Source: Granulosicoccus sp.
Lineage (GTDB): Bacteria > Pseudomonadota > Gammaproteobacteria > Granulosicoccales > Granulosicoccaceae
Assembly: GCA_023301795.1 (NCBI GenBank)
Contig: JALZVU010000274.1
Coordinates: 1-43,579, forward strand
Length of the DNA: 43,579 nucleotides
Direction: 5' to 3'
Positions within the stretch are counted from its first letter, which is position 1; each line of letters begins with the position of its first letter. This document shows positions 5,467-24,003 of the stretch, piece after piece. The position numbers were made by a program, and so were the translations under genes. The notes beneath the pieces are model-generated. The model saw only the letters and a list, made by a program, of their open reading frames with translations, ran no database searches and was not told the origin of the DNA.

Positions 5467-5479
5467 ACATGTGACAACG

Positions 5480-5532: not shown

Positions 5533-5608
5533 CATATCAACAAAAACTGTAGTACGCTGGCTCAACTCGATCCACTGCTAAACAGCTCACTTTCCAAGGA
5601 GAAAAACT

Positions 5609-6289: not shown

Positions 6290-6303
6290 AACCGTTTTAG
6301 AAA

Positions 6304-6333
6304 AGCACCGCTGATCTTAATATCAGCGGTGCT
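6304..6333 (+). other. Stem-loop after ompA-like copy 2
   Basis: AGCACCGCTGAT pairs with ATCAGCGGTGCT around a loop of about 6 bases, giving a perfect 12-bp stem. No T run follows, so it looks more like an mRNA 3'-end stabiliser than a terminator; the true terminator lies 38 bases further on. Confidence 0.6.
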
Positions 6334-6370
6334 AGATGAGCGCAACTGAAAAACAGCAGCCCATCAAATA

Positions 6371-6416
6371 GCAGACACAAAAAAGCCAGCGTCAAAGCTG
6401 GCTTTTTTGTGTCTGC
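6371..6416. terminator. Bidirectional terminator between ompA-like copy 2 and the fasciclin gene
   Basis: A perfect 20-bp inverted repeat (6371-6390 and 6397-6416) surrounds the 6-base loop GTCAAA. The stem has a GC-rich core (GCCAGC/GCTGGC) next to the loop and runs of six A and six T, so it can terminate transcription from both sides. It serves the convergent genes ending at 6289 (+) and 6432 (-). Confidence 0.85.
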
Positions 6417-6431
6417 TATCAACCCAGTTGC

Positions 6432-7052: not shown

Positions 7053-7055
7053 TTG

Positions 7056-7601: not shown

Positions 7602-7666
7602 GTATTACCCCAAGCAGAATGCAGTGGTTTTTTTCCTGACGCATCAGGTATGGACACAATACAACA

Positions 7667-8332
7667 CTAGAACGTGTGGAACCCGGGAATATCTGTCACC
7701 GACAGTATTGGCTTCGCAGACCCATCCGTGGAGGCTGTTTCTGAGCGTGTCTCTGGAGCTAGCTCTTCGCTGACCATGACGGATGCAGCGGCGTCGACAA
7801 CCACTTGTGGCTCGTTAGCAGTCTGATCATCAGCAATCAGCAGCCCCTGAGTCAACTTCGCTCCCATTCGCTCGACAAAAGACGGATGACCGCTAATCAT
7901 TACCTCGGTTTCCCCGATATCAACAACGTTGCCAGCAAGCCCGTCAGCCAGTATATTCTGCCGCAACTCATCGTCCATGGGGCCGTTCAACGCGAATGCC
8001 AATTGAGTTCGTGCCACATCCGGGACTGCAGAAAGTGTTGAATCCTGCAAATCGAAAAGCACACCGTGCTGGGCTTCGATCGAGCTCAGCGTGTCAGCAA
8101 TCGACCCGTCAAACGTTCCGGACACCACACCGACAAGATCACCATCGATGCTCGCTTCTCGACCAGTGACGCTGGCCAACTGAGCAACAAACAACTCAAG
8201 CGGTGCGTTGTTGACCCACAGGTTTATAGCGTCATCACTTTGCGACTTCGGTGGCACTGCATCATCTGCCATTGCATGACCAAAGCACACGGCCGTCAAC
8301 AACAGTATTGCTGGTACACAGTTAAATGGCAT
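7667..8332 (-). CDS. Periplasmic protein resembling secretin N0/N1 domains (SctC-like, no secretin barrel)
   Basis: Starting at the ATG at 8332 gives 221 residues with a signal peptide (cut near AMADD). The mature N-terminus looks like the N0 domain of type III secretins (SctC/YscC/HrcC): NAPLELFVAQLASVTGREAS, then VVSGTFDGSIADTLSSIE and a LFDLQDSTLSAVP strand. A second segment (VVDIGETEVMISGHPSFVERMG) resembles the adjacent N1 domain (typically VSGPPxYVE). No outer-membrane secretin domain follows; the protein ends in a disordered-looking tail. It may be a stand-alone ring or scaffold. The frame is open to a GTG at 8374 and an ATG at 8371, neither with a ribosome site. The 8332 start has only a weak GAG. 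Confidence 0.6.
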   Translation of the reverse strand: MPFNCVPAILLLTAVCFGHAMADDAVPPKSQSDDAINLWVNNAPLELFVAQLASVTGREASIDGDLVGVVSGTFDGSIADTLSSIEAQHGVLFDLQDSTLSAVPDVARTQLAFALNGPMDDELRQNILADGLAGNVVDIGETEVMISGHPSFVERMGAKLTQGLLIADDQTANEPQVVVDAAASVMVSEELAPETRSETASTDGSAKPILSVTDIPGFHTF

Positions 8333-8456
8333 GCTCAAATTATTCACAAGATTAGGTCCTGTCCAGGTCATCACGCGATGAGATTACAGTGCTGTCGTTG
8401 CTAACATGGCGAACCCTGAGTAGCACTTGGCCGGTAGTACTGCGCATTCAGATCAA

Positions 8457-9473
8457 TCAGGAATTGACACGCCTTTTAAGCGTCAATACCACACCACGAT
8501 TCGGCATGGCATCGAAGGCTTCAGGTGCCCAACAACCTTCATCCAGTACCTGGTCATGCTCAACCCCTGAAAATAGCAGTGCCTCTTTCACGCGATGTGC
8601 ACGACCCAGTGCCAACACTGAGTTGCCGTTGTTGATATCTGTTTGCCCGTGACTGCAGCCAATTACCGAGAGGATATCCGTTGCCGGATCCATCATCTCC
8701 ACGTACTGCTCAATGATAAGTTTGTTGGTATCGCCTAACGAGAGTGAATCGTTGGGAAACACCAAGATGCTCTGTTCCAGATCCTCATACCCAGTAAACA
8801 CATCGACATAGTTGGACTCAAGGTTCTCCCTGTCGTACATATTTCGCTTCACTGGGGTCTGGCTTTTCGAGGACACTTGACCGCTTGACTCACCCACCGT
8901 TGGGGCTAAGGCCTTAGGCTGTGCTGCAGTTACCACGGGCACATCATCGGCCTTGAAAACTACGTTGGTGAGTGTCGCATCAACGCCTTCAAAAGCACTG
9001 TCGTCCACATTCACAGCACGAGCCTGAGCACCTCGAATAACCAGCTCGCTAGTGGGCGTAACGTTGCCATCAACCTGAGCGTAATGACGCTCAGCGGTAA
9101 GATCACCGACGCTAAGTGTATATAACGATGAATTAACATCGTCTATATCAGCAGCACCAATCGAGGCGCTGACGATGTTAGCAGCATCATCGCCACCATC
9201 ACGCTCTAGCTTGTAACCCAGATCAGTCAAGTCTTTTTGTACTTGACGTTCAAAAGCGTTGTCGGGATCAGCTACCTGAACAGTAGCCAGTCGCGGATCT
9301 AGCTCAGGGTACTGAGCAACAGCATCAATAAGGTTTTGTGATATCAGCGTGTAGTCAGTGGAAGAAGAATCACTCCACGGTGCCTTCGAGCCGGTGGAGC
9401 TGCACGATGACAGACCCAGCGCCAGTATCGCGACCGATAACGCTCTGAATTGCACTGCAAATGATGTCTTCAT
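8457..9473 (-). CDS. Lipoprotein with a degenerate OmpA-like C-terminal domain
   Basis: About 338 residues from the ATG at 9473, which starts a lipoprotein signal (LSVAILALGLSSC). An in-frame ATG at 9488 is an alternative; neither has a clear ribosome site. The middle (about 30-180) contains a region like lipoproteins that interact with envelope machines, with many Asp/Ala/Val. The C-terminus (about 230-338) matches the OmpA/MotB fold: ILVFPNDSLSLGD, ILSVIGCSHGQTD, then SVLALGRAHRVKEALL and a final GVVLTLKRRV. The usual GHTD is GCSHGQTD, so peptidoglycan binding is uncertain. It is the first gene of the minus-strand set running to 6432 and probably the outer-membrane anchor of that set. Confidence 0.65.
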   Translation of the reverse strand: MKTSFAVQFRALSVAILALGLSSCSSTGSKAPWSDSSSTDYTLISQNLIDAVAQYPELDPRLATVQVADPDNAFERQVQKDLTDLGYKLERDGGDDAANIVSASIGAADIDDVNSSLYTLSVGDLTAERHYAQVDGNVTPTSELVIRGAQARAVNVDDSAFEGVDATLTNVVFKADDVPVVTAAQPKALAPTVGESSGQVSSKSQTPVKRNMYDRENLESNYVDVFTGYEDLEQSILVFPNDSLSLGDTNKLIIEQYVEMMDPATDILSVIGCSHGQTDINNGNSVLALGRAHRVKEALLFSGVEHDQVLDEGCWAPEAFDAMPNRGVVLTLKRRVNS

Positions 9474-9714
9474 AGATGTAATAACCATGACTATCTGGTA
9501 CGTGAGTTGGTAAAACGCAAGGTCAAGACTACGCTCTAGCGGCGCGCTCTACGACGTGGCAAACCGCTACGATAGCGTTTTATTAGTTCTAGTGGACAAC
9601 CAGTGCGCTGATACGATTCATGCAGCGTATCATTTTTCAAATTTGTAATGTTACATGCAATTTTGCGACAAAATAACGTCACCCACGTACCAGAACACCG
9701 AACATTAGAATCCT
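9474..9714. promoter_or_regulatory. 241-base gap between cyclase/FHA gene and OmpA-like lipoprotein
   Basis: Both flanking genes read on the minus strand, so this gap holds the end of the cyclase unit and probably the promoter of the lipoprotein unit. It is AT-rich around 9630-9680. An 11-bp inverted repeat lies near its ends: TCTGGTACGTG (9494-9504) and CACGTACCAGA (9684-9694). No T-run terminator and no good sigma-70 pair was found. Confidence 0.4.
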
Positions 9715-10593
9715 TTAGTCCAGCTCCGTACAGTAGGTAATTACGTGCGCTGAATCATCTTCGGGATTAAACCCTAAACCGATGCTGCCTGAACGATCAA
9801 GCGCAATGGATTCTCTTCTGACAAATTCGGCCGGTGCGCCAGGCTTGAGAACGTAAGTGCCGTTGGTGCTTGAGTCGTGCAGCACGTACCGCCCTCTGAG
9901 CAACTCTATCGATGCATGATTGCGTGATGCCAGGGCAGAGTCGACGACCACATCGTTGTCCTCGGAACGTCCAAAGCTTACGTTGGGACGCTCGGAATTT
10001 ACGACCAGCCGCCGGCTGTCAATGGTTAGCTTGAGCACACCGGCATGCTGATATCGCTCGTGTTCGGGCACCCCGGTAATAATCACAGTATGTGCACTGT
10101 CGGTTTTCCAATTGACACGGTACACCGGCATCGGAGCCGAGACTCCCTTGAACGCCACATTGTCCAGATAGTGCGTGTTTGTGCGGTGCTTTAACGACAA
10201 TCTGGCGATCGCCTCTTCAGTGGTACAAATTTCATCAGCTTCGGCAAATGCGGCCACTCTGGCCGCAAGATTTACAGCGTTGCCATACACATCACCAGCG
10301 TCGGGAATAACCTCGCCAAAGTGGAAGCCGATGCGCACCGACAAGGGCAACGTCGCGTGTCCCAGCTGAATGTCCACCGCCGCCGCACAGGCTGCATCGC
10401 AGTCGTTAAAACTAGCCAATGAGGAATCTCCGACGGTTCGCAGTAATGCGCCCCCGTGAGCTTCTATCGCCGATTTCATGCAGAGCAACGACTGGCTGAT
10501 GCTTTTATGCGCGCTGATATCGCCGTGGGTCTGATAAAGCCGCGTGCTTTCCGTCACATCGGCAAAGAGAACCGCTAAAAATTGAGGTTTCAT
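9715..10593 (-). CDS. Class III adenylate/guanylate cyclase fused to an FHA domain
   Basis: In this 292-residue soluble protein, residues 1-160 form a class III nucleotidyl cyclase catalytic domain and about 185-285 an FHA domain. The metal-binding aspartates are D12 (LFADVTEST) and D56 (TVGDSSLASF). The base-contacting Asp is D101 (DVYGNAVN), the transition-state Asn/Arg are N108 and R112, and K149 (FKG) is kept. The purine-selecting Lys before the VGD loop is Arg here (R52), so the substrate or activity is uncertain. The FHA part has the phosphothreonine-binding residues: GRS (208-210), SRNH (223-226) and TNG (243-245). It likely couples Ser/Thr phosphorylation to cyclic nucleotide synthesis. 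It lies upstream of the SctC/SctD-like set on the same strand. Confidence 0.85.
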   Translation of the reverse strand: MKPQFLAVLFADVTESTRLYQTHGDISAHKSISQSLLCMKSAIEAHGGALLRTVGDSSLASFNDCDAACAAAVDIQLGHATLPLSVRIGFHFGEVIPDAGDVYGNAVNLAARVAAFAEADEICTTEEAIARLSLKHRTNTHYLDNVAFKGVSAPMPVYRVNWKTDSAHTVIITGVPEHERYQHAGVLKLTIDSRRLVVNSERPNVSFGRSEDNDVVVDSALASRNHASIELLRGRYVLHDSSTNGTYVLKPGAPAEFVRRESIALDRSGSIGLGFNPEDDSAHVITYCTELD

Positions 10594-10716
10594 CGTACAC
10601 TCGGTACCCGGTTATGCGACGCAAGAGTACCTTTCCACACGCATCTTTACCAGTTTAGCAGCATCGCACATACCAGTCCGCTAATATGCGGAGCTTCAAA
10701 CAATTGAGTGCCTGTC
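10594..10716. promoter_or_regulatory. Divergent region, cyclase/FHA and alpha/beta hydrolase
   Basis: These 123 bases lie between divergent genes. I found no clear -35/-10 pair. GAG precedes the ATG at 10717 by a suitable distance and favours it over the in-frame GTG at 10708. Confidence 0.3.
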
Positions 10717-11706
10717 ATGAGTGAACCTGTTCCTATCGAGCAAAGCGTGGAGCTGGACATTGCCAAAGATCCTTTTCACGCCACCCTGACCCTTCCCGAA
10801 GGCACTGATTCAAGCCAGCCATGGAGCCAACAGAGTGCAGTAAAAGCGGCTGTGCTGCTGTTACCAGACAGCGGTCCACTGGACAGAAACCAGAACTCGG
10901 TTCAGGTACAACTGAACATCTCTAACGATATTGCCAACTATCTGGCTGCGCACGGCATCGCCAGCTTACGATTTGATAAACGCGGTTGTGGGCTGAGTAA
11001 AGGCAGCTTTGACAAAGCAGGGCACTCTGATCTGGTCGCGGATGCTCAGGTCTGGCTTGAGTACTTGCACAAGAGCTCGCCAGTTGCTGGAGCGCCTGCG
11101 TTCATTCTAGGCCATGGTGAAGGCAGCATTATCGCACCACAGCTCTGTACCGCCAACCCATTCGTACAGGGCCAGATTTTACTCACGCCGTTTATTGAAG
11201 ACTTTGAAAATATCATTCGCCGACAGGCCGAAAACGGTTTGCGAGAGATCGCCGAACTTGAAGGCTTCAAGGGCAAGCTCATTCGCTTTTTTCTTCTCCT
11301 GAGCGGAGATCAGATAAAAAAGCAAAAAAAGCTTGTTCAGAAAATCAGAAAATCCCGCCGCGACACGCTCAAAATTCGTAAACAGGTCATCAATGCAAAA
11401 TGGATCCGCGAGATGGTCAACCTTGATGCCGGTGCAATTCACAGCGCAGTCAACGTACCGACGCTGATTATCGGCGCTCAGAAGGATCTTCAGTGCCTAC
11501 CTGGAGATGTCGAAAAGATTGCCGCACTCATAACAAGTCCTGTAGAAACTCATATGTTGAGCGATCTGACTCACATCCTGCGACCAGATCCAGACAAGGC
11601 CTCTATACAGCACTACCTCAAGCTTTCAATAGAAGAGGTGGATAGACGGGTTGTAGACCTGGTGCATCGCTGGCTTGATGATCAAATCGCTGCTCGACCG
11701 CACTAA
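10717..11706 (+). CDS. Alpha/beta-hydrolase-fold protein lacking the nucleophile serine
   Basis: The 329-residue protein has an alpha/beta hydrolase core: an early strand with LLLPDSGPLDRNQN (oxyanion region), FDKRGCGLS, a nucleophile-elbow region and a lid-like helical insert rich in Lys/Arg (about 185-225). The expected acid is in IIGAQKDLQ and the His in LTHILRPD. The elbow reads GHGEGS where active relatives have GHSEGG, so the catalytic Ser is replaced by Gly. The protein may be an inactive binding protein, or may use the nearby Ser in a shifted geometry. No signal peptide or membrane helix is seen, so it is cytoplasmic. It stands alone between a divergent cyclase gene and the caspase locus. 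Confidence 0.75.
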   Translation: MSEPVPIEQSVELDIAKDPFHATLTLPEGTDSSQPWSQQSAVKAAVLLLPDSGPLDRNQNSVQVQLNISNDIANYLAAHGIASLRFDKRGCGLSKGSFDKAGHSDLVADAQVWLEYLHKSSPVAGAPAFILGHGEGSIIAPQLCTANPFVQGQILLTPFIEDFENIIRRQAENGLREIAELEGFKGKLIRFFLLLSGDQIKKQKKLVQKIRKSRRDTLKIRKQVINAKWIREMVNLDAGAIHSAVNVPTLIIGAQKDLQCLPGDVEKIAALITSPVETHMLSDLTHILRPDPDKASIQHYLKLSIEEVDRRVVDLVHRWLDDQIAARPH

Positions 11707-11847
11707 CAGGCACACGATCAACTGACGAGGTGCACAACTTTACGTATTTGGTCAAAATTAAATATCCAGTGCGTTAATCTACAAGTACCACGCGAGCAAT
11801 GGTTTGCTGCAACGAACGTGGCCAAATACAACGTCACCACCAGGGAT

Positions 11848-13947
11848 ATGATCAAGACGCCTTACAACATCCTGTGTTTTTTGCTGCTAATGCTGCTGCC
11901 AGGCCTCCTGATGGCTCAGGAGCACAAGCTGGCACTGGTCATTGGCAACGGGCAGTATGCCGATTCCCCACTAAGCAACCCGATTAACGATGCTGCTGAC
12001 ATGGCCGATGTGCTTGAGAATCTGGGCTTCACGGTCATGTTGCACACCGATGCCAACCGACGGGAAATGGGTAGCGCCATCCGCGAATTTGGTCGCGAAC
12101 TGAAACGCCAGCGCGGCGTTGGCCTGTTCTACTACGCTGGTCACGGCATGCAGATCGACGGCGCTAATTATCTGATCCCGACCGACACGCCCATGAACGA
12201 AGAGGACGAGGTGCCCTACGAGTCAGTCGATGTGCGCAGCGTGTTGGCAAAGATGGAATCGGCAGGCAACGCGCTAAATCTTGTCATACTCGATGCCTGT
12301 CGCAATAACCCTTTCCCAAGTCGATTTCGAAGTGCTAACCGAGGCTTGGCACGCGTCGAGGCACCCATCGGCTCTCTGGTGGTGTACGCGACTGCACCCG
12401 GCTCAGTGGCGGCAGATGGTGACGGCAGAAACGGCGTGTTCACCGGAGCACTGCTAGAGCAGCTTCGCACCAAAGGTCTGAGCCTGACTGAGACCATACG
12501 GCGCACACGTGCAGCTGTTGTAAAACTCACGCAGGGCAAGCAAGTACCCTGGGAGAGCAGCTCGTTGCTGAAAGATTATTATTTTTCACCCAAACCTGAC
12601 ACCGCCCCCCAGCTGGCCACTCGCAGCGCTGTGAATAATCTGGCTGTGCCGGCAGCGCCTACACCTGAGGTGCCCGCGCCTGTTCAGCCGGCAGCGCAAG
12701 AGAGTCGCTCGGAGCGATTACTCGAAAACGAGCCCCTTGCCATGCTCGACACAACGAACGTTACCAGGCTTTCCAAGCGGCCTTTAGACACTGAAAACGC
12801 GCGCGCTGATAACCGCTCAGACGCCATACTCGAACAGGACAATAGCCCACCCACACGCCGTGCTCCCCGCAACGTAGCCAAAGCCACATTGACCGTCAAC
12901 GTCGACCCGCCTGATGCCCGAATTCGCATCATGAACATCGTCGAAAAATATCAGGCAGGTATCGCTCTGGACAAGGCTCGATCATACGATCTGTATGTCA
13001 CTCGACCAGGCTATGCGCCTTACCGTCAGAACATCCTGCTCGACAAGGATGCCACCGACATCGACATCGTGCTGAAGAATCAATCGATAACTGAACCACA
13101 AATGACGACCATCACGGGCGGACGCTACACCATGGGCTGTACCAAAACAGATGACGCTTGCGCGGCCTTTGAAAAACCTCGGCACAGCGTTACTGTCTCC
13201 ACATTCTCGATGTCGCTGACCGAAGTCACCGTCGCTCAGTTCGACGAGTTCGTCACTGGCACCGGTTACACAACCGATGCTGAAAAAAATGCGGGAAACA
13301 ATTCTGGCTGCTTCGTCTGGAGCGATAGCGGCGGCATCAGCCGTTCTGCGGCACGTTGGAAATGGGATAAGACGAAAAGCTGGAAAAACCCTGGATACTC
13401 ACAAACACCAGAGCATCCGGTGAGCTGTATAAGCTGGAACGATGCTAACAACTATACGCAGTGGCTAGCGCAACAAACCGGGCGCCCTTATGCCTTGCCC
13501 AGCGAGTCCGAATGGGAGTTTGCGGCACGTGGCAATTCTCAAGGCGTCTTCGGCCACGCGGCATCGGCCAGCAGGCTCTGCACCATTGCGAATGTAGCAG
13601 ACAACACCAAATCACCCTCAGGCTCTAAATGGTCAAATCGAATTAATTGCAATGACAGATATTGGTTTAGCGCACCCACTGCCTCGTTTGTGGCGAACGA
13701 CTTTGGTTTGTTCGACATGCAAGGCAACCTTTGGGAGTGGGTAGCCGACGTCTGGGCGGATGACCTGTCAGGCACACCACGAGACGGCAACGCCAACACA
13801 AAAGGCTCTGGGGACACACGTGTATTACGAGGAGGCGGATGGGATAGCGCTGCTAATCGTGCCAGACTTAGCAGCCGTAGCCGAAGCGACATTACCAATC
13901 GTGCTTCAATGACAGGATTCAGACTGGTGTTGCGCAAGTCTCAATAA
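11848..13947 (+). CDS. Secreted caspase-like protease with PEGA and SUMF1/FGE-type domains
   Basis: The 699-residue protein (ATG at 11848) starts with a strong signal peptide (MIKTPYNILCFLLLMLL..., cut near LLMAQ). A caspase/peptidase C14 domain follows (about 25-250) with catalytic H99 in YYAGHGMQ and C151 in LDACRNNP. After a disordered linker comes a PEGA-like beta domain (about 355-415; LTVNVDPPDARIRI). Last is a formylglycine-generating-enzyme-type (SUMF1, C-type-lectin-like) domain (about 420-699; GGRYTMGC, LPSESEWEFAARG, MQGNLWEWVADVW, RVLRGGGW, GFRLVLR). The two catalytic cysteines of true FGE, after RGGSW, are absent, so this domain probably binds a ligand. The frame runs back to a GTG at 11818, but that start adds residues before the signal peptide. 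A periplasmic or surface protease sensor is inferred. Confidence 0.88.
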   Translation: MIKTPYNILCFLLLMLLPGLLMAQEHKLALVIGNGQYADSPLSNPINDAADMADVLENLGFTVMLHTDANRREMGSAIREFGRELKRQRGVGLFYYAGHGMQIDGANYLIPTDTPMNEEDEVPYESVDVRSVLAKMESAGNALNLVILDACRNNPFPSRFRSANRGLARVEAPIGSLVVYATAPGSVAADGDGRNGVFTGALLEQLRTKGLSLTETIRRTRAAVVKLTQGKQVPWESSSLLKDYYFSPKPDTAPQLATRSAVNNLAVPAAPTPEVPAPVQPAAQESRSERLLENEPLAMLDTTNVTRLSKRPLDTENARADNRSDAILEQDNSPPTRRAPRNVAKATLTVNVDPPDARIRIMNIVEKYQAGIALDKARSYDLYVTRPGYAPYRQNILLDKDATDIDIVLKNQSITEPQMTTITGGRYTMGCTKTDDACAAFEKPRHSVTVSTFSMSLTEVTVAQFDEFVTGTGYTTDAEKNAGNNSGCFVWSDSGGISRSAARWKWDKTKSWKNPGYSQTPEHPVSCISWNDANNYTQWLAQQTGRPYALPSESEWEFAARGNSQGVFGHAASASRLCTIANVADNTKSPSGSKWSNRINCNDRYWFSAPTASFVANDFGLFDMQGNLWEWVADVWADDLSGTPRDGNANTKGSGDTRVLRGGGWDSAANRARLSSRSRSDITNRASMTGFRLVLRKSQ

Positions 13948-14023
13948 ATCGATAACGAAGCGATAATCGATAACGCGGGTATCTTCACAACCCTTGCCTG
14001 TTTTCAAGAACGTTGTGGCAGCA
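13948..14023. repeat. Short CGATAA-repeat segment between convergent genes
   Basis: Between the convergent stops the sequence holds three near copies of CGATAACG/CGATAATCG within about 30 bases (about 13948-13977). They give overlapping imperfect inverted and direct repeats. No T-run terminator is evident, and the function is unknown. Confidence 0.4.
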
Positions 14024-14728
14024 CTACCAGGTATACCGAAGCCCGACACCATAAAATTCGTCGTCCCCTGTTAGCTCATTGCCAGACAACGCGATATCCA
14101 ACGCCTCACCAACCCGATAAACAAGCCTTATATCTGCGGTAGTCTCACTAAACAGGTCTGATCTAAACCGGTTGATAGTGGCTTCACCCTCAAGCTTCGG
14201 TGTAAACGTGCGACGTAGTCCTATATAGAACTCCTGAAAATTGAAGTCTAGAGTTTCACGCGACACGAACGGTAAAAAGTCAGGATCCAGTTGAATTCTG
14301 TACTCGATAGAGACATCAACTTCGCCGTACATGGCACCTGCAATCCAGTCTGTCTGGTCAAAGGCTGCCAAAGACCGGTAGTAAAGAATCCCTGCAGATA
14401 TCCAGCGAGATTCAACCTCGGCTTCTACATTCACCGTGCCTGGGTCAATACCCAGCTCCAGTAACTGCTGGTCCAGACCCAGATCTTCGGAGGCGTCGCC
14501 AAAGTCCTGATTCCGAAATTCAGCCTTGAACGACCAACCCTCCGTCAAATCTACCAGCAGCGTGGCCAACACAGGCGGGCTTGCCTCAGTGTCAAGCAGA
14601 TACTGCACTTCCAGGTAGCTGTAGCTGTGCTCGGCCGAATTGGTTGAGCTGAAAAGATCCTGAGCACTGGCGGACCCACCCGTGGCAAGTGCTGTGCAAA
14701 TGATGACGGAACGGGCTATTCGAAACAT
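14024..14728 (-). CDS. Small outer-membrane beta-barrel protein
   Basis: From the ATG at 14728 the protein has 234 residues and begins with a signal peptide (MFRIARSVIICTALATGG, cut near ASAQD); GGAAG lies about 11 bases upstream. The mature part alternates polar and hydrophobic residues in many short strands (for example SYLEVQYLL, WISAGILYYRSL, EFYIGLRRTF). It ends in an aromatic residue (YGVGLRYTW), as expected for a substrate of the BAM outer-membrane insertion machine. No specific family is recognised. The frame is open to 14854, but those extra residues precede the signal peptide. It is the only minus-strand gene inside the caspase locus and diverges from the trypsin gene by 209 bases. 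Confidence 0.7.
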   Translation of the reverse strand: MFRIARSVIICTALATGGSASAQDLFSSTNSAEHSYSYLEVQYLLDTEASPPVLATLLVDLTEGWSFKAEFRNQDFGDASEDLGLDQQLLELGIDPGTVNVEAEVESRWISAGILYYRSLAAFDQTDWIAGAMYGEVDVSIEYRIQLDPDFLPFVSRETLDFNFQEFYIGLRRTFTPKLEGEATINRFRSDLFSETTADIRLVYRVGEALDIALSGNELTGDDEFYGVGLRYTW

Positions 14729-14937
14729 GTGCAAATGTCTTCCGTGGTAGGGCGTGTGTACGAACGTCGCTGGATGGGCTTCCTGCCAGCAATAATACAC
14801 GGCGCATCGGATTCTCTCGTCTACACGTGATCTATTTTTTGTTTTTGCAAGCACTTTGTTAAAAAATAGTGACAGGTGCGTTTATCACAGTACTGGGCAT
14901 ACCCACCCACATTGGATAAACACGGAACTGAAGCTAC
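14729..14937. promoter_or_regulatory. Divergent region, beta-barrel protein / trypsin-like protease
   Basis: This 209-base region separates divergent genes. It contains an AT-rich perfect 9-bp inverted repeat, CTATTTTTT (14832-14840) and AAAAAATAG (14861-14869), around a 20-base loop. The repeat could be an operator or a promoter-proximal hairpin. No convincing -35/-10 pair was found. Confidence 0.4.
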
Positions 14938-16032
14938 ATGAAAACATGGACCAACCAACTGGCGCTTGCCATCACACTTGTCATTGCTACAAACACAGCA
15001 GATGCACAGGAGGCGATTGATACTCCAGCACAAACCCGCATTGTTGGTGGCATTAATGTTGATATTCGCACCGCACCCGCCACCGTTGCACTGATAAGCA
15101 ATGACTTACTCGCGCAAACCGGATCCTACTTTCAGGCCCAGTTTTGTGGCGGCACAGTCATCAGCGCTCGCTGGGTGGTCACCGCGGCCCACTGTATTAG
15201 TCAGAACGGCCAGCTCATACCCACCCATGAAATCAGCGTATTGATGGGAACAACTGACCTGGAAGCTCCAGTCAATCAACCGATAGGAATCACTCGTGTC
15301 ATCGCGCACCCAGACTACAACGATAGCGATACGCGTAATGATATCGCCTTGCTGCAGCTCGAATACGATGCGCTTGTGGAACCCGCTAGCATTAACACGG
15401 TACCCATCGCATTTAATGACGAAGCGCTGATTACGGGCTGGGGCGCCTTGAATGAAGGCAGTGAATTCCAATCTCAATTCTTCACCAGCGTCTTGCAAGC
15501 TGCTGTTGTCAACATGGTTCCAGGAGATCAATGCGGAACAATGTTCCCCGTGTATTCCGGACAGGTGGACTCACGCAACCTATGCGCAGGAACTCGTGAT
15601 GGCGGTGTGGACTCGTGTCAGGGAGATTCAGGTGGACCGCTCTATCGCTTTGATCCAGCTCTCACCACCAATGTACTTACCGGCGTTGTCAGCTGGGGAT
15701 TTGGATGTGCGAACGCGCAGGCACCCGGTGTCTATACCCGAGTTGCAGCCTTTTCCGACTGGCTTCGAAGCACAACAGGATCCGCGCTTGAAGGCCCTGA
15801 CAGTCCGCCTACCGGAAAACCTGTTCCCGCCAATGACTCAGCGACTGGTCCCGTGGTGAGCGAATCCTCAGGCACCGAAGAAACCACGAACTTACTGGTG
15901 GCAGGCTCTAGCGGCTTTATGATGTTACTACTGATGCTCACACTGGCAATCTGGCGACAGGCGCTATTGCACAGACAGCCTTTACCCACGGACTCAAAGC
16001 ATGGCCTGCATAACAACAACACCCCTGCATAA
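14938..16032 (+). CDS. Secreted trypsin-like serine protease (S1A) with C-terminal membrane anchor
   Basis: The 364-residue protein has a signal peptide (cut near ADAQE) and a short propeptide ending at Arg34 before the new N-terminus IVGG (35-38). The S1A catalytic domain carries H85 in TAAHC, D135 in NDIALL and S231 in GDSGGP. D225, six residues before the serine, marks the base of the S1 pocket and predicts cutting after Arg or Lys. Paired cysteines as in trypsins are present. After the domain (about residue 278) comes a Pro/Ser/Thr spacer. A hydrophobic helix (about 318-340, SSGFMMLLLMLTLAIW) and a basic tail then suggest membrane anchoring or a GlyGly-CTERM-like sorting signal. The zymogen form implies activation by a trypsin-like cut. 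It lies between the two caspase genes. Confidence 0.9.
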   Translation: MKTWTNQLALAITLVIATNTADAQEAIDTPAQTRIVGGINVDIRTAPATVALISNDLLAQTGSYFQAQFCGGTVISARWVVTAAHCISQNGQLIPTHEISVLMGTTDLEAPVNQPIGITRVIAHPDYNDSDTRNDIALLQLEYDALVEPASINTVPIAFNDEALITGWGALNEGSEFQSQFFTSVLQAAVVNMVPGDQCGTMFPVYSGQVDSRNLCAGTRDGGVDSCQGDSGGPLYRFDPALTTNVLTGVVSWGFGCANAQAPGVYTRVAAFSDWLRSTTGSALEGPDSPPTGKPVPANDSATGPVVSESSGTEETTNLLVAGSSGFMMLLLMLTLAIWRQALLHRQPLPTDSKHGLHNNNTPA

Positions 16033-16110
16033 ACGCCAGCAACTCAGTAGTATTGACCCCATCACTATTGTTTTGTGATTGACTCGAAAACGACTACGAA
16101 TCTGCCAATC

Positions 16111-17907
16111 ATGTTTCTGCGCATACGCACCTTGCTTCGCTTTGCCCTATTACTGTTTCCAGTGTGCAGTTTGGCGGGGCAACACGCACTGCTTATCGGT
16201 GTATCCGACTATTCAGACTCACGTATTCCTGATCTGGAGGGCCCTGTCCATGATGTGGCTGCGCTGCGCGATGTATTAGTCAAGCAATGGGGGTTCAACG
16301 AATCTGATATCACATCGCTGCTGGATGCCCAAGCAACCGAACGTGCCATTCTGCAGGCTATTGATGCACTTGAGTCGAACACATCCGAAGGCGACGATAT
16401 CGTGATTTATTATTCAGGGCATGGCACCAGCGCAAGTGATCAAGACCTGGGCGCACGACTGAATCTGCCTGATGGGAGCGGTGCCATTGTTGGCAGCGAT
16501 TTCAACCCCGACAAACTCAACAGAGAGTCCTTGTCTGACTCTGTGCAGGATGGCCTTATCGTGGGACGCTACGACATCAAGCCTAGACTTGAAGCACTGG
16601 ACGAGCATCGCAACGTTCTGGTCATTTTTGATGCCTGCTTTTCCGGCAATGCTGCCCGCGATGCGAATGCTGTCTACCGCCCTGCAGCCAGACGCCAGAT
16701 TGACTTGAGCTTATGGCTACCCGCTTCGCCTGAGAAAGCCGGAGGTGATGCATCTGCCCCTGCAAATGCTGCAACAATCTCGCGCAGCCGTTCGCTCCAA
16801 AGTACTGATGACAACAATTTTACCTATAAAAATACTGTCTTCTTTGGAGCAGCAGCTGAAGATCAGTACGCTGTTGATTTTTCAGCAGCCGACATTGCAG
16901 CTGGTAATGTCACCAGTATCGATGGCAAGCCTCACGGGGGATTTACTGACTCACTCCTACGAGCGCTATGGTTACCACAAAGCGAATTCGATGGCCTGAG
17001 TTTCAATACCTTGTTCAACCGCACTGTTAATCAGTTCAATGTCTGGTGCAAGGTTTGTGGACACACGCCTGTATCCCTGCCTGCCAGAAGCGATACCAAC
17101 AACCAACTCATGGCCAGAACCATTCTCAATGTACCGCAATTGCTGGCCGTGGATCATCGCTACAATGCTGCGAACGAGCCAGCATTCACAGACGCACTCA
17201 TCGTGGATACCGAGTCACTCAACGACACCGAACTAGCGCTTAAAGCACTACTGCCAAACGGCGTTCTAGCGCATCAATCAGTGGAACAGGCAACATCACC
17301 AGACGTGTATTTTGCAAAAGACGCCTTGTCCATGGTCAATGCCTATGGCTCAGACGGACAACTGATCACCGCACTACCAGAACAGATTGCGGACGGCGAG
17401 TTGTCGCAATGGTTATCAGGTCGCCAGTGGCTCAAGAGACGAATGCACCAAGATCTGATTAATGAACAAGGCGCTCTTCAAGTCAGCTTTCGACATCCGA
17501 TGGCTGGTAATTCAGTCACACAGGGCGAATACATCTACTTTACTATTGCCAACAAGACACCGGCAAGCCTTGTGATGCTACTTCTGGATGCCCAAAGCCA
17601 ATTGTCACTGCTTTATCCTGTGAGCGAACAGGAACAACAATTTGTCTTACCTGCACTGAAAACACTTCGTATCCCCAGTGAAAGCGAACAGCCTCTGCAG
17701 GTGACCCCTCCCTGGGGAACCGACACAGTATTACTCTATACACTTGCACCAGACCATAACTTGGGGCCCGCGCTGAGACAACTGGCTAGTCTGGACACTA
17801 TTGCTTTTGATCATCCTTCGCTAGCGAACCTCGTCGACACACTGGACAACAACGAGTTAACGTACAGTGCAGCCACAATACGTATTGTTTCGACTCCTGC
17901 CCAATAG
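16111..17907 (+). CDS. Secreted caspase-like protease with DUF4384-type C-terminal region
   Basis: From the ATG at 16111 the protein has 598 residues and opens with a signal peptide (MFLRIRTLLRFALLLFPVCSLAG). A GTG at 16075 would extend the n-region by 12 residues; neither start has a clear ribosome site. The caspase/C14 domain (about 25-330) has H104 in IYYSGHGT and C176 in IFDACFSGNA, with the HALLIGVSDY strand that opens such domains. The C-terminal third (about 450-598) has a beta-rich module (EYIYFTIANKTPASLVMLLLDAQ, LYPVSEQE) like the DUF4384 domains found after bacterial caspases. Caspase-like proteases of this kind cut after basic or acidic residues; the target is unknown. The next gene, an anti-sigma-like protein, starts 14 bases after its stop, suggesting co-transcription. 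Confidence 0.85.
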   Translation: MFLRIRTLLRFALLLFPVCSLAGQHALLIGVSDYSDSRIPDLEGPVHDVAALRDVLVKQWGFNESDITSLLDAQATERAILQAIDALESNTSEGDDIVIYYSGHGTSASDQDLGARLNLPDGSGAIVGSDFNPDKLNRESLSDSVQDGLIVGRYDIKPRLEALDEHRNVLVIFDACFSGNAARDANAVYRPAARRQIDLSLWLPASPEKAGGDASAPANAATISRSRSLQSTDDNNFTYKNTVFFGAAAEDQYAVDFSAADIAAGNVTSIDGKPHGGFTDSLLRALWLPQSEFDGLSFNTLFNRTVNQFNVWCKVCGHTPVSLPARSDTNNQLMARTILNVPQLLAVDHRYNAANEPAFTDALIVDTESLNDTELALKALLPNGVLAHQSVEQATSPDVYFAKDALSMVNAYGSDGQLITALPEQIADGELSQWLSGRQWLKRRMHQDLINEQGALQVSFRHPMAGNSVTQGEYIYFTIANKTPASLVMLLLDAQSQLSLLYPVSEQEQQFVLPALKTLRIPSESEQPLQVTPPWGTDTVLLYTLAPDHNLGPALRQLASLDTIAFDHPSLANLVDTLDNNELTYSAATIRIVSTPAQ

Positions 17908-17921
17908 ATCAAACGATAATC

Positions 17922-18971
17922 ATGAACACTGACGAACCGGACGACAATCTGGACGACAATGGACTGGCCTATGCGGCAATCAGCCTGTGCGGCAATCAAC
18001 CGCATGGCGAGGCACCGCAGTGGCATGAGCTAACGGCCTGGCATGAAGGCACACTTGCACCGCTGCGCTCGGAACAAGTGCTCAGTCATATTGCCAATGA
18101 TCCTGCCTGTTTTCAGCAATGGCTGGATGTCGTTGAAGCTCAAAGCTGGGTTGAAGAGGAAGCCCTTTTAGCCAATACAGCAACGACCCCTGATGACGCG
18201 GCTCAGTCAACAACCAATACCGATAAGGCAAGTCCCTACTCCTCGCCCCCTGTGCGCCCGGCAACACCATCCAACGACTCGATGGTCTCAAAGATTCGTT
18301 CACTACTGGCAGGATTATTCCAGCAACCACTGCCTGTATACGGTGGTGCGTTTGCCGCCATCTTAGTGGCGGTGTTGGTGGTGCCGCTACTGAACACGGG
18401 ACAGGCACCCACGTTGCAACAACAGATGGATCGCAGCATGGATACCTATATACAATCACGCAGTTCTCTGACAGGTTCTCCACCGGCTGCCCGCAGCACC
18501 CGAGGTCTTGGTGGACTGTTTGATGAGCTATCTGTCAATGATGTGGAACGTGGTTACCTGCAATCGGGCATGCTGCAGTTCAACCAGCAACTGGTACGTG
18601 ACAATGATACCGGCCAAAGTACCAGTGAAGCATGGCAAGCCCTATTGTCTGAATTATCCGATGAACCCGTGAATTGCGATCAGGCCATTGATTCAGAACA
18701 TTGTGTGGCGGTTGCCGAGGAATTTACGCAATTAGGTCAATGGGCAATAATGAATGTGGCAGCCTGTCAAACAGTGGCTTCAACGGCGACGGATTCGCCC
18801 CTATTCGATGACGAATTCTGGTCTGACCAATATGCGCTCTATCAAAGCCTGATAGGACAGACAACGATTGCTAATAGCCAACTACTGGGTCAAAGCCTAA
18901 GCGTGTTGAGCGTGCAATCAACTGAGGCGTTGTGTAACATCGCCTCAACCGTGATTTCGGCAAGTCAATAG
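17922..18971 (+). CDS. Transmembrane anti-sigma-like protein with degenerate zinc finger
   Basis: The 349-residue protein has one membrane helix (about 139-157, PVYGGAFAAILVAVLVVPLL), giving a cytoplasmic N-terminus of about 138 residues and a periplasmic C-terminus. The N-terminus (WHELTAWHEGTL ... LSHIANDPACFQQW, H56 and C63) follows the spacing of anti-sigma zinc fingers (HLxxCxxC), but the first cysteine is Asp. The periplasmic part has several cysteines and no known domain. Directly after it, 18 bases on, comes the sigma-like gene, the usual layout for a regulator pair though in reverse order. I infer that it holds that sigma factor at the membrane and could be released by a nearby protease. 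No experimental family match is claimed. Confidence 0.6.
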   Translation: MNTDEPDDNLDDNGLAYAAISLCGNQPHGEAPQWHELTAWHEGTLAPLRSEQVLSHIANDPACFQQWLDVVEAQSWVEEEALLANTATTPDDAAQSTTNTDKASPYSSPPVRPATPSNDSMVSKIRSLLAGLFQQPLPVYGGAFAAILVAVLVVPLLNTGQAPTLQQQMDRSMDTYIQSRSSLTGSPPAARSTRGLGGLFDELSVNDVERGYLQSGMLQFNQQLVRDNDTGQSTSEAWQALLSELSDEPVNCDQAIDSEHCVAVAEEFTQLGQWAIMNVAACQTVASTATDSPLFDDEFWSDQYALYQSLIGQTTIANSQLLGQSLSVLSVQSTEALCNIASTVISASQ

Positions 18972-18989
18972 GGACGGCATTTTCAAGCC

Positions 18990-19862
18990 ATGGAAGTACT
19001 GCGCGAAAACCTGCTGCAACAATTATATTCTGATCGCTGGATCAGTCGTCTAAGAGCATTTGTCGCCCGCCGTTACAGAGATTTCGGTGATTGGGAAGGC
19101 TGGTTTGAAGAAGCCCATCAGAATCTTGCGCTAAAGATCAACGCCATTCCAGCGGAACAAAGCGTCAACGATGCCATGATTTTCGCTATTTTTAAAAATG
19201 AGCTGATTAGCGTCAAACGCAATCGCCTGGGCTATCCGCGACCACGCGCCTGGCTGCGTGAATTCAGTGAATTGGGTCAGGATCTGTTCGAGTGGATGTG
19301 TTTGCAAAAATTGCCACGCGACAAAATCATTGCAATGGCCACCCGAAAGTCAGCAGAAAAATCTTACAGCGATACCCTGCCCGGTAGCGATGCAAGCCAC
19401 TCAATCCCTCACGCTAAACTGCTCGTTGAGCTAACGGACACCATGATCAAGAAAAAAGAGTGCGATGGTACCCGTCCGAGCGTCACCACCGATGTGCACG
19501 ACGAGTCACTGGTTCAAATTGCGAACGATGCGCCCAGCGTTGAAGACGAGACTGACCACGCACAGCTTGAACTGATGTTGTCAATGATACTGGGGGCAGA
19601 CAATGTCACTGCTGCGGTGCGCAACAAGGCTGTCGACAGACTGCAAACTCTAAGGACCAGCCTAGACACCGAACCACTGCTCAATGATTCGGACATACTG
19701 ATACTGCGTTGTTATTACTTTCAGGGTATGTCGCAAAATGATATTGCCAAGATTGTAAAACAACCCCTCCAGCGTGTCGTCAGACAGCGTGAAGCTGCTA
19801 TAAAACGCATACGCTCATTTATGGAATCCAACGGTCTGACGCGCGAGACCTTTGATCTATAG
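18990..19862 (+). CDS. Divergent sigma-70-like RNA polymerase sigma factor
   Basis: This 290-residue soluble protein has a sigma-like plan. An N-terminal helical region (about 15-115) contains DWEGWFEEAHQNLALKI and FAIFKNELISVKRNR, resembling sigma region 2. After a variable middle part, a C-terminal region 4-like helix-turn-helix (about 232-280) reads DILILRCYYFQGMSQNDIAKIV and then QRVVRQREAAIKRI. It is longer than ECF sigma factors (about 180-200 residues) because of the insert of about 110 residues between regions 2 and 4. It follows the anti-sigma-like gene by 18 bases and is the last gene of the caspase locus. Target promoters are unknown; it may activate its own locus. Confidence 0.65.
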   Translation: MEVLRENLLQQLYSDRWISRLRAFVARRYRDFGDWEGWFEEAHQNLALKINAIPAEQSVNDAMIFAIFKNELISVKRNRLGYPRPRAWLREFSELGQDLFEWMCLQKLPRDKIIAMATRKSAEKSYSDTLPGSDASHSIPHAKLLVELTDTMIKKKECDGTRPSVTTDVHDESLVQIANDAPSVEDETDHAQLELMLSMILGADNVTAAVRNKAVDRLQTLRTSLDTEPLLNDSDILILRCYYFQGMSQNDIAKIVKQPLQRVVRQREAAIKRIRSFMESNGLTRETFDL

Positions 19863-19988
19863 ACGAATGCCACTGTTTTTGAGTTGACCGGCATCGCATT
19901 ACTCGGCAATCCCGATATATTTGGACTATCACGTTGCGCGTAAATACGTTACAACTGTTAGGTCATTCAACAGGAGATACGCATTTTC
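19863..19988 (+). promoter_or_regulatory. Upstream region of the glutamate/aspartate transporter operon
   Basis: In these 126 bases TTGACC (19882-19887) is a fair -35, but no good -10 follows at 16-18 bases. AGGAG lies about 11 bases before the gltI ATG, a longer spacing than usual. A promoter here is expected from the strand change of function, not proven. Confidence 0.35.
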
Positions 19989-20849
19989 ATGAAACGCTTA
20001 TTACTCACAGCAGCAATCGCACTCGGTATGGGTGCTGGTGCAGCACACGCTCAGGATCAGACCGGCACATTGGCTAAAATTGCCGAGAGCGGCGAAATCG
20101 TTATTGGTCATCGTGAATCATCAGTACCTTTCGCCTATCTTGACGAAAACCAGCAGCCCATCGGCTACTCGATGGATCTGTGCATGAAGATCGTCGATGC
20201 AGTATCCGAAGAACTGGGCAAGGAATTGTCAGTCAAATACGTACCCGTAAATCCCAAGACGCGTATCGCGCTCATGGCTAACGGTACTATCGATCTGGAA
20301 TGCGGTTCCACCACCAATAACCTCACCCGTCAACAACAAGTGGAATACCTGCCCACCACTTTTATCACAGGCACCAAGATCCTTACGCGTAAAGACAGTG
20401 GCATCACGTCGGTCAATGATCTTGACGGCAAAGCCGTTGCATTGGCACAAGGCACCACCAACGAGCGCGCCGTCAAGGCCGCTGTGGAAGCTGCGGGAAT
20501 TGATGTAAAAATTCTCCCGGTTCGTGATCATGCCGAAGGCATGCTGTCACTGGAAACCGATCGCGTTGATGCGTATTCCACCGATCACATCTTGTTGTTT
20601 GGCCTTATCTCAAAGAGTAAATCTCCTGACGACTACACCGTCGTTGGTGACTTCCTGTCGTTTGACCCGTACGCCATCATGGTGCGAAGAGACGACAGTG
20701 CCTTTGAGCTTGTCGGCAAAAAAGCTATTGCATCGTTGATGCGCTCGGGCGAAATTCTGGATATCTACAGCAAGTGGTTCGATCCGTTGGGTGTACCTGC
20801 AGACGACACTCTGAAGACAGCCTTTATGCTGGGCGGCCTACCTGAGTAG
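19989..20849 (+). CDS. gltI: Glutamate/aspartate ABC transporter, periplasmic binding protein
   Basis: The 286-residue protein has a signal peptide cut near AHAQD and the SBP-bac-3 fold. GltI-like features include IVIGHRESSVPFAYLDENQQ, the phrase IDLECGSTTNN, and LDGKAVALAQGTTNERAV in the second lobe. It binds an acidic amino acid in the periplasm and hands it to the permease pair coded next. Length matches the family. An intercistronic stem-loop at 20865-20904 separates it from gltJ, an arrangement that usually gives the binding protein higher expression than the membrane parts. The choice of glutamate/aspartate over other polar amino acids is inferred from sequence resemblance. Confidence 0.88.
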   Translation: MKRLLLTAAIALGMGAGAAHAQDQTGTLAKIAESGEIVIGHRESSVPFAYLDENQQPIGYSMDLCMKIVDAVSEELGKELSVKYVPVNPKTRIALMANGTIDLECGSTTNNLTRQQQVEYLPTTFITGTKILTRKDSGITSVNDLDGKAVALAQGTTNERAVKAAVEAAGIDVKILPVRDHAEGMLSLETDRVDAYSTDHILLFGLISKSKSPDDYTVVGDFLSFDPYAIMVRRDDSAFELVGKKAIASLMRSGEILDIYSKWFDPLGVPADDTLKTAFMLGGLPE

Positions 20850-23174: not shown

Positions 23175-23762
23175 TTAACCCTCATCCTCGCTTAACCCAC
23201 AGGCAAGAGTACCTGTATCACCAAACGCGGAAATGTACGTCATATCCAGCGTTCCAGCGGGGCGATTGATCGATACATTGTCAAACTGAGCCAGATAAGT
23301 TCCCTCTGAGAAAATTTCAAGATAAGCACCTGAGCTTTGCCAGTTGATAGGAAAAAGGTCAACATCATCTCCAGCAATTCCGCTGCCATCGGAATAAAAG
23401 GCAAACAACGCCAACTCGTCAGCAAATCCGACGGATGAATCTATGCAAACCCACAGGGAGTCAGTTTGCGCCTCAGAGACTCCGTTGAAGAGTGCACTAG
23501 TATCGAGACCACCAGTGGTCGGAGGAATGAACGGTGGCTGTGTCTCAGGTATTTCTGTTGTCTCAGCAGTCTCTGTTGTCTCAGGCAAAAAAGGTGGGTC
23601 ATTGGGAACTTCCTGAGGCTCACTGGTTAGTGGTGCAAAAGGATTGTCAGTGGAATTCTGCTGCAAGACACCATTTTGCTGCGTGTCAGTGGAGGACTCT
23701 TGCTCTAGACAACCTGTTAACGCAAGCGATGACAGAACGAGCAGTGCGGGCAATTTATACAT
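23175..23762 (-). CDS. Orphan lipoprotein of unknown function
   Basis: The 195-residue product has a lipoprotein signal (LVLSSLALTGC, lipidated Cys18). About 80 residues of low-complexity sequence follow, rich in Thr, Glu and Pro with TET/TAETTE-like repeats, and look like an extended stalk. The C-terminal part (about 85-190) has two cysteines (WVCID and LACGL) and beta-strand-like segments (YLEIFSEGTYLAQF). It could be a small disulfide-linked beta domain displayed at the outer membrane. I do not recognise a family. It is a single-gene unit with its own terminator, between the Glt operon and the pigment cluster. Confidence 0.7.
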   Translation of the reverse strand: MYKLPALLVLSSLALTGCLEQESSTDTQQNGVLQQNSTDNPFAPLTSEPQEVPNDPPFLPETTETAETTEIPETQPPFIPPTTGGLDTSALFNGVSEAQTDSLWVCIDSSVGFADELALFAFYSDGSGIAGDDVDLFPINWQSSGAYLEIFSEGTYLAQFDNVSINRPAGTLDMTYISAFGDTGTLACGLSEDEG

Positions 23763-24003
23763 TACGATATCCTTGTTACCAGATTAGCTTTGAACAGGCC
23801 TGTATGGCTTGTATCGACATACACAGCTAAACGAACGAGGCTCAATTTCTTGACAACTTTCATCAATAAAAACGAAACATTTTTCTCACAGCACCCAGAA
23901 TTGCCCAGCAAAGCTCGTCTTGAGTGCCATGCGCATTAAATCTTGGTTGACTTGAAAGGATGATCAGGGCATAAACAAGCGCTTGTAACAACAGGATCAC
24001 CGT
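23763..24003. promoter_or_regulatory. Divergent region at the left edge of the pigment cluster
   Basis: This 241-base AT-rich gap separates the orphan lipoprotein (-) from the first pigment-cluster gene (+). The best plus-strand promoter is TTGACT (23947-23952), a 17-base spacer and CATAAA (23970-23975). A TTGACA at about 23850 lacks a matching -10. I see nothing coding. Confidence 0.45.

Follow-up and report, generated by a model that had tools for sequence, protein, structure and literature searches.

Exported caspases beside a membrane anti-sigma factor and a divergent sigma factor in Granulosicoccus, with a shared candidate promoter

Here, we examine a protease and sigma factor locus in a stretch of DNA of 43,579 nucleotides from Granulosicoccus sp. 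(GenBank assembly GCA_023301795.1, contig JALZVU010000274.1), which we call the window. The locus specifies two exported caspases, an exported trypsin, a transmembrane anti-sigma factor, and, as its last product, a divergent sigma factor (Table 1). The trypsin, caspase 2, anti-sigma, and sigma genes follow one another at spacings of 42, 14, and 18 bases and probably constitute one operon. Caspase 1 precedes the operon, and a gene on the opposite strand lies in between. Domain scans agree with the five genes and families named in an initial annotation, which was made by reading the sequence alone and which gave the spacings of 14 and 18 bases correctly; the anti-sigma factor is without a Pfam family. 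Export signals were judged by eye. To our knowledge, the roles of bacterial caspase homologs are largely open, and hardly any role has been assigned to exported ones.

Table 1. Positions in the window of the locus genes, candidate promoters, and related features
Feature	Positions	Strand	Remarks
Candidate promoter of the locus sigma factor, TGGTCAA-N13-GTGCGTTA	11749..11776	+	5' of caspase 1; ranked 2nd in the window by a matrix trained on three trypsin promoters of other genomes
Caspase 1, exported, H/C dyad, C-terminal FGE/SUMF1-type domain	11848..13947	+	Frame open from GTG 11818; counterparts in L007, L074
Candidate promoter of the trypsin-caspase-anti-sigma-sigma operon, TTGTTAA-N13-GTGCGTTT	14856..14883	+	Motif matches
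Exported trypsin (S1 family), zymogen site TR/IVGG, Asp pocket, C-terminal hydrophobic tail	14938..16032	+	Domain scan and residue check
Caspase 2, exported, H116/C188, DUF4384	16075..17907	+	The numbering of the initial annotation agrees with an in-frame start at 16111, 12 codons further in
Transmembrane anti-sigma factor, 349 aa	17922..18971	+	Profile comparisons
Anti-sigma single hydrophobic (transmembrane) segment, residues about 139-158	18336..18395	+	Read from the sequence
Candidate cleavage site of the anti-sigma factor: codons for the conserved R-x-T-R (R191-S-T-R194) of its periplasmic linker	18492..18503	+	Ortholog alignment
Divergent sigma-70 family factor, 290 aa	18990..19862	+	Sequence evidence for region 4; other parts assigned from the fold model
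Exported beta-barrel-like protein (by eye)	14024..14854	-	No Pfam family; counterpart seen in L007 only; optional part
Candidate promoter, TTGTCAA-N13-GTTCGTTT	23829..23856	-	Separated by 66 bases from the lipoprotein gene
Lipoprotein (lipobox LTGC by eye), candidate further sigma target	23175..23762	-	No Pfam family

Both caspases carry the domain PF00656 (cut-off 21.4 bits): caspase 1 at E 1e-42 (146.8 bits), together with an FGE/SUMF1 domain (6.2e-54), and caspase 2 at 1.9e-15 (57.7 bits), together with DUF4384 (2.5e-9). Their histidine/cysteine dyads are intact, as first described. Specifically, from the first in-frame starts the residues are H109/C161 and H116/C188, and the H99/C151 and H104/C176 given earlier are counts from later starts. 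The dyad is intact in all 12 caspases of the residue check, or in 12 of 13 when the caspase of G424 is counted (other genomes and loci are cited by our G and L numbers). The trypsin (PF00089, 2.3e-47, 162.1 bits) possesses the triad H85, D135, and S231, a TR/IVGG zymogen site, and D225, which, by the usual residue roles in S1 proteases, is the Asp at the S1-pocket position; this agrees with the Arg/Lys-type pocket and zymogen N-terminus proposed for it. The trypsins of L007 and L074, like that of the window, retain triad, pocket Asp, and zymogen Arg. In L009 (6070-7131, plus strand), the catalytic Ser is replaced by Tyr (GDYGGP), and the pocket Asp and zymogen Arg are gone; this copy is apparently a pseudoprotease retained in the operon. 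L009 keeps its caspase dyad and the anti-sigma R-x-T-R in spite of the damaged trypsin.

The trypsin had been described as membrane-anchored and flanked by the caspases. A C-terminal helix is present, and to judge from its sequence it resembles a GlyGly-CTERM sorting tail more than a plain anchor; the opposite-strand gene intervenes on the caspase 1 side. The GlyGly-CTERM model TIGR03501 (cut-off 15.5) is passed by L008 (18.7) and missed by L007 (12.9), and it does not match the window copy or L009. A rhombosortase scores above cut-off in seven of the eight genomes searched, the window's included, the exception being G029, the genome of L007. The trypsin linker of G039 holds a run of Gln codons at an assembly break (L074 6724-7756; L008 20-382), before the GlyGly-CTERM tail.

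The window sigma factor matches region 4 (PF04545) at 5.6e-4 and 19.8 bits, below the cut-off of 24.1; its ortholog in L007 passes (26.8), and those in L008 (21.6) and L009 (20.2) stay below. Against the PDB, a seven-member sigma profile retrieves FliA (6.6e-5) and SigL (2.3e-4). The list is headed by 8vd6_A (8.9e-6), none of whose stretches passes alone and which looks like bias. A four-member profile gives sigma factors at E 0.12 and 0.17 only. A template-free fused model points the same way: for its sigma half (residues 351-646), the 50 best rows are mostly sigma factors, as judged by titles and chain letters. The best Foldseek match of this half has E 0.01, and the best VIA match is 3hug_A (SigL region 4; Z 9.4, 79 residues, 2.8 Å). 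Whole sigma factors align with the model from residue 351 on, at an rmsd of at least 9 Å over both domains, and region 2 is predicted from this fold only. Regions 2 and 4 are separated by a long insert, residues about 85 to 190, whose C158 is invariant in eight aligned rows.

No Pfam family scores above cut-off in any of the seven members of the anti-sigma profile, A8. In the search of the class, A8 reaches the RseA of G307 (E 9.1e-4), which is genuine: it is encoded between RpoE and RseB and matches PF03872 (2.7e-11). By hhalign, residues 31-78 of the anti-sigma N-terminus align with about the first 50 residues of RseA (81%; E 1.2e-5, for a single comparison). All seven A8 members have four invariant Cys residues, which are the sole Cys residues of the periplasmic part, and all seven lack the zinc motif HxxxCxxC, found in the G424 homolog only. 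Matches in the PDB were discarded for the N-terminus (two designed repeat proteins without a stretch of their own and one weak match) and for a four-member anti-sigma profile (one methyltransferase at 0.19). PF04545 in L007, the FliA and SigL profile matches, and the RseA alignment uphold the initial naming of the two products as sigma and anti-sigma, which we consider very probably to form a cognate pair.

The initial annotation had also pointed to the periplasmic part of the anti-sigma factor as a place to look for basic cut sites, and a candidate, R-x-T-R, is conserved there in the four orthologs. Within this part, no columns other than R191 and R194 hold Arg throughout; column 210 is R or K. 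Basic residues are scarce in the region (6 of 190 in the window copy). In shuffles, one all-basic column arises in 0.1% of cases and two within four positions in 0 of 20,000. Position 194 is basic in all seven A8 members. Orthocaspases cleave after positively charged residues (PMC6426788).

Among 48 genomes of the order, four match the sigma factor strongly (E 1.4e-83 or better), and two more match it weakly. The same four genomes have full-length caspase 2 (7.2e-286 or better; the next match is 4.4e-16, and some match exists in 22 genomes) and the anti-sigma factor (5.2e-137 or better, with weak matches in five further genomes). The co-occurrence of caspase 2, anti-sigma, and sigma in these genomes exceeds chance (Fisher p 5e-6 for one gene pair). 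Related trypsins exist in 44 of the 48 genomes at 1e-20; three of the four locus copies match at 1.6e-169 or better, and the copy of the fourth locus is truncated by a contig end. All four sigma-bearing Granulosicoccaceae genomes, the window's and three others, possess the order trypsin, caspase-DUF4384, anti-sigma, sigma, so the gene order reported initially recurs in relatives. In G039, this order spans a contig break that falls in a poly-Gln stretch of the trypsin, and the stretch is seen at both contig ends. The caspase-FGE gene lies ahead of the operon in the window, L007, and G039 (L074), and it is not in front in L009.

Distant relatives retain the linkage in other orders. The sigma profile finds two of 369 genomes of the class at 1e-4, the window's own and G236. 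The seven-member anti-sigma profile finds 6 of 48 genomes in the order, 6 of 369 in the class (1e-3), and 2 of 398 in the phylum (1e-4), the own genome counted each time; in the order of G236 it finds one of four genomes and added nothing new. G236 (L058 5631-14715, minus strand) carries three caspases, sigma, anti-sigma, OmpA, and a further caspase; all four caspases of that genome sit in this cluster, one of them with a CHAT match. G006 has sigma, anti-sigma, a trypsin-like protease (PF13365, PF00089), and a caspase. G012 has sigma, anti-sigma, and then, by eye, a trypsin-like frame that starts at the contig end; a second G012 contig opens inside a caspase whose C-terminal tail and downstream gene are shared with G006, which, again by eye, fits the G006 order. 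In the single-contig genome G081 (L069 about 5800-10700, minus strand), fragments of sigma, anti-sigma, and caspase lie in the same direction, which may be a decayed or losable accessory copy or may reflect read or assembly errors.

Finally, in G424 (L081, minus strand), a gene for a caspase-domain protein (2-1465; PF00656, 36.5 bits) follows the anti-sigma gene (1477-2460) by 11 bases. The G424 anti-sigma has a zinc-type N-terminus, and the profile matches its periplasmic part only (166-306). The G307 RseA is matched over profile positions 27-149 only, and a motif search of its 17 kb flagged no caspase. These two cases point to the periplasmic part of the anti-sigma factor as the part that may go with the caspase. 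In G210 (L066 247-1119, minus strand), a divergent sigma factor of similar length and layout adjoins an anti-sigma gene cut by the contig end; no caspase was flagged in the 5.4 kb seen, from which the downstream side is missing. For G340, 12 kb showed no sigma factor by eye and no caspase in the motif search. Overall, each of ten genomes counted has only two to four caspases, and one lies within about 4 kb of the pair in all nine loci whose downstream side is visible or inferable, although the loci may share descent and are not independent draws. Since any one gene would have a caspase within 4 kb in fewer than 1% of cases (4 x 8 kb / 3.6 Mb, or 0.9% at most), a chance linkage is unlikely.

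A promoter signal connects the genes. An ECF-like motif (ECF, extracytoplasmic function), GTYAA-N13-GTKCGTT, has three exact matches in the window, where 0.02 are expected, and none of 100 shuffles reaches three; with an N14 spacer there are no matches in the window. The sites lie 41 bases before caspase 1 (counted from GTG 11818), 54 before the trypsin, and 66 before a lipoprotein. When a matrix is trained on three trypsin promoters, all three caspase 1 promoters emerge as the first or second untrained match of their own loci; this test is partly blind, since seven sites had first been found by eye and the three-site training was set up afterwards. The G039 caspase 1 site is one base off the exact pattern. 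The motif also precedes a lipoprotein gene that diverges from the trypsin gene in L009, and the window and L009 lipoproteins are only weakly alike (E 0.006 for the pair). Exact matches occur in 15 of 201 loci, every one of them in a sigma-bearing genome; these four genomes also account for most of the bases.

Trypsins from genomes that lack the sigma factor provide a comparison. Six such related trypsin loci have no site of at least 21 bits, versus four of four orthologs, and one of 3000 random 640-bp stretches reaches 21 bits. The 98,348 bases of sigma-less loci hold one match of at least 15 bits (16.2, inside the L049 gene). For control loci L047 and L049, with the gene on the minus strand, the whole-locus minus-strand scores apply (6.5 and 16.2). 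The control scan comprised these six trypsins; the window genome's own paralog (G000 C39) and the remaining related trypsins lie outside it. Because the motif precedes the proteases, recurs in relatives, and is missing from the sigma-less trypsins, the proteases are probably targets of this sigma factor; we regard their membership in its regulon, as predicted from sequence, as likely.

A scan of G029 (1,978,967 bases) extends the candidate regulon. Spacer 13 gives 10 matches of at least 18 bits, versus one to six for 17 other spacers. Of 25 matches of at least 15 bits, eight stand before an open reading frame, two of them already known. Four of the other six precede lipoproteins, against a background of 99 in 1831 (binomial 1.2e-4); the other spacers give 4 of 38 (Fisher 0.007). 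One more of the six (L096) is a lipoprotein by eye that the lipobox rule misses. The distance window, the 15-bit cut-off, and the lipobox rule are our own choices, and a stricter lipobox leaves two of the eight as lipoproteins. In 287,718 bases of the window's own genome, there is one further strong site, before a 249-aa protein that by eye is FkbM-type methyltransferase-like.

Our preferred reading, held tentatively and at slightly less than even confidence, is a self-amplifying envelope signaling module in which the sigma factor is released when a caspase cuts the anti-sigma factor. The notion is that the anti-sigma factor, with one transmembrane segment, keeps the divergent sigma factor inactive; gene pairing and an RseA-like N-terminus are observed, and binding is predicted. 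Upon an envelope signal, an exported caspase would cut the periplasmic linker of the anti-sigma factor, most likely at R-x-T-R just outside the membrane, and further proteolysis would then free the sigma factor. To judge from the motif, the freed sigma factor would transcribe from GTYAA-N13-GTKCGTT promoters and so raise expression of its own operon, of both exported caspases and the trypsin, and of certain lipoproteins. The trypsin would be an accessory output or an amplifier rather than an obligatory step, and the trigger might, speculatively, be read by DUF4384, FGE, or the lipoproteins. We favor the caspase as the activator because of its linkage with the anti-sigma factor, the conserved R-x-T-R, the intact dyads, and orthocaspase specificity; even so, its role as the activating protease of the switch is a possibility that we rate below even. 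Slightly more tentative again is the full statement: that an exported caspase is the site-1 protease acting at R-x-T-R in a self-amplifying extracytoplasmic pathway that controls surface lipoproteins in several proteobacterial lineages. The initial annotation had suggested a proteolytic cascade across the periplasm. The proteases are possible inputs, in keeping with that suggestion; the motif makes them probable outputs too, and an obligatory step from caspase to trypsin, which we set aside, is unlikely given the dead-looking L009 trypsin.

The proteases could, however, be outputs and nothing more. On that account, housekeeping DegS/RseP-type proteases open an ordinary envelope-stress switch, and caspases, trypsin, and lipoproteins are its regulon. 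Motif sites before caspase 1, the trypsin operon, and the lipoproteins fit this, as does the RseA-like N-terminus of the anti-sigma factor; positive autoregulation with adjacent target genes is, moreover, usual for ECF sigma factors. We consider the explanation plausible, if on the doubtful side, because the caspase linkage persists across differing caspases and shuffled gene order, because a caspase follows in G424 where only the periplasmic part is matched and none was flagged beside the G307 RseA, and because the conserved R-x-T-R is left unexplained. An Arg-specific trypsin might instead be the activating site-1 protease that cuts R-x-T-R, with the caspases as effectors. The intact trypsins of the window, L007, and L074 would be equipped for this, and trypsin-like proteases follow the anti-sigma gene in G006 and, by eye, at the contig end in G012. 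We regard this as unlikely: the L009 ortholog has lost Ser, pocket Asp, and zymogen Arg while caspase dyad and R-x-T-R are intact, and by eye no trypsin was recognized beside the pair in G236 or in 3.4 kb of G424.

A cell-suicide or antiphage circuit, with the caspases as executioners under sigma control, had been raised in the initial annotation. PADLOC matches both caspases to its caspase profile and the trypsin weakly to LmuA and Avs1b, and bacterial conflict systems include proteins with caspase, trypsin, and FGE domains (PMC8195603). By eye, nonetheless, the proteases have export signals, which sets them apart from executioners that act in the cytoplasm; the anti-sigma and sigma factors have no PADLOC match; no NTPase switch or nuclease scored among the ten window proteins scanned; and the lipoproteins make up four of the six new motif-bearing open reading frames in the scanned part of G029. 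The suicide option finds no direct support and is very unlikely, and we did not file the locus as antiphage, the PADLOC caspase profile being generic and its trypsin matches weak. Least probable of all, to the point of being extremely unlikely, is that secreted caspases and trypsin merely happen to lie beside a sigma/anti-sigma pair. Simple co-inheritance of the loci, the variable presence of the barrel gene and the FGE caspase, and the G210 pair, without a caspase in the part seen, would speak for such independence, yet genomes with so few caspases place one near the pair in every assessable locus, the linkage survives shuffled order, and promoters are shared.

Several observations weigh against the reading of a caspase-opened, self-amplifying switch. 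The sigma factor and its orthologs all miss the sigma70-ECF model TIGR02937 (21.3 bits for the window and 21.0-26.8 for the orthologs; cut-off 42.9), so we call the factor ECF-like only. Region 2 has no family match, and hence no sequence support, in the window sigma factor or the three orthologs, and an hhalign comparison of the sigma profile with an RpoE (18%, 40 columns) covers region 4 only. The model of the anti-sigma and sigma complex is poor (pLDDT 57.9, pTM 0.31) and its interface unreadable; the anti-sigma factor modeled alone (pLDDT 60.3; best Foldseek E 1.2) has no usable fold match. In G006 and G012, the first Arg of R-x-T-R is missing, and the sequences align there across gaps only. 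The linked caspase of G424 seems to have lost its dyad His (HFSGMEY). The G006, G012, and G236 loci have no exact motif match and weak sites only, none convincing. In G029, the four matches of at least 20 bits with spacer 13 are equaled by the wrong spacer 21, and 17 of 25 matches of at least 15 bits are not 5' of an open reading frame; single sites outside the cluster may therefore be chance.

One known system close to the proposed switch is RpoE-RseA, where DegS and RseP carry out regulated intramembrane proteolysis and release is expected to begin with a site-1 cut in the periplasm. Alike are the membrane anti-sigma factor and an N-terminus that aligns with that of RseA; here, in contrast, the sigma factor lies outside the curated ECF model, four Cys residues are conserved in the periplasmic part, and caspases and a trypsin belong to the operon. 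The initial view that the combination is not a described system was too strong. Specifically, metacaspase operons with sigma-70 factors were reported in 2012 from Myxococcus xanthus, Anaeromyxobacter, Haliangium, Sorangium, Ralstonia, and Fibrobacter (Asplund-Samuelsson 2012, PMC3501461). As here, a caspase homolog and a sigma factor share an operon, an OmpA partner occurs as in G236, and N-terminal transmembrane helices or signal peptides are noted for some of the metacaspases. The main text of that account, with which our comparison is by description only, mentions neither anti-sigma factor, periplasm, nor trypsin, and its section 13 gives no promoter or mechanism for the operons.

Analogous to the switch proposed here, the type III-E CRISPR system Csx29-Csx30-CASP-sigma uses a caspase-like protease that was shown to relieve a sigma factor of its inhibitor (Strecker 2022, PMC10028731). 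Alike are the cutting of an ECF sigma inhibitor by a caspase-like (CHAT) protease and the presence of sigma motifs within the system's own locus. The Csx29 system, however, is RNA-triggered and CRISPR-linked, whereas here the caspases are exported and the inhibitor spans the membrane. By eye, no type III-E effector was recognized among the open reading frames of the first 23 kb of the window or of L007-L009. Similarly, EACC2-caspase neighborhoods contain ECF sigma genes, with trypsin and FGE domains in the same system network (Kaur 2021, PMC8195603); they carry EACC2, a DUF1822 TPR protein, and partly TRADD-N, none of which scored in ten window proteins. GlyGly-CTERM serine proteases processed by rhombosortase, such as Vibrio VesB (PMC6219818), share with L008 and, by eye, L007 an exported trypsin with a Gly/Ser-hydrophobic-basic tail; unlike in the VesB type, the window tail does not score and the protease lies in an operon with a sigma switch. 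A review mentions ECF54 with CHAT neighbors (PMC8999054). In the literature as far as it was available to our search, we noticed no locus that joins an exported caspase, a trypsin, a membrane anti-sigma factor, and a sigma factor.

Caspase-sigma operons and Csx29-Csx30-CASP-sigma were known; new here are exported caspases with a membrane anti-sigma factor, the promoter, the candidate cut site, and a linkage that persists when the gene order is shuffled. The protease-sigma-anti-sigma cluster persists in several lineages with a shared promoter signal, which suggests that in some bacteria caspase relatives act outside the cytoplasm to activate genes. Exported caspases thereby gain a likely partner in the membrane anti-sigma factor, a likely substrate site in R-x-T-R, a promoter whose activity would reveal the state of the switch, and a list of candidate targets. 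If the switch works as proposed, it would do in the envelope what the Csx29-Csx30-CASP-sigma relay does, and it would open a membrane anti-sigma factor in a manner that is new.

Regarding the surroundings of the locus, predicted sigma-70-type promoters and terminators in positions 11600-20100 are at chance level (7 versus 7.1 and 6 versus 8.0, respectively). Amino-acid ABC transporter genes follow the sigma gene, and their binding protein (19989-20849) scores in the domain scan. Upstream of the cluster, the window encodes an adenylate-cyclase and FHA domain protein (9715-10593, minus strand) and, by eye, a tandem pair of OmpA-like exported proteins (4687-6289, plus strand).

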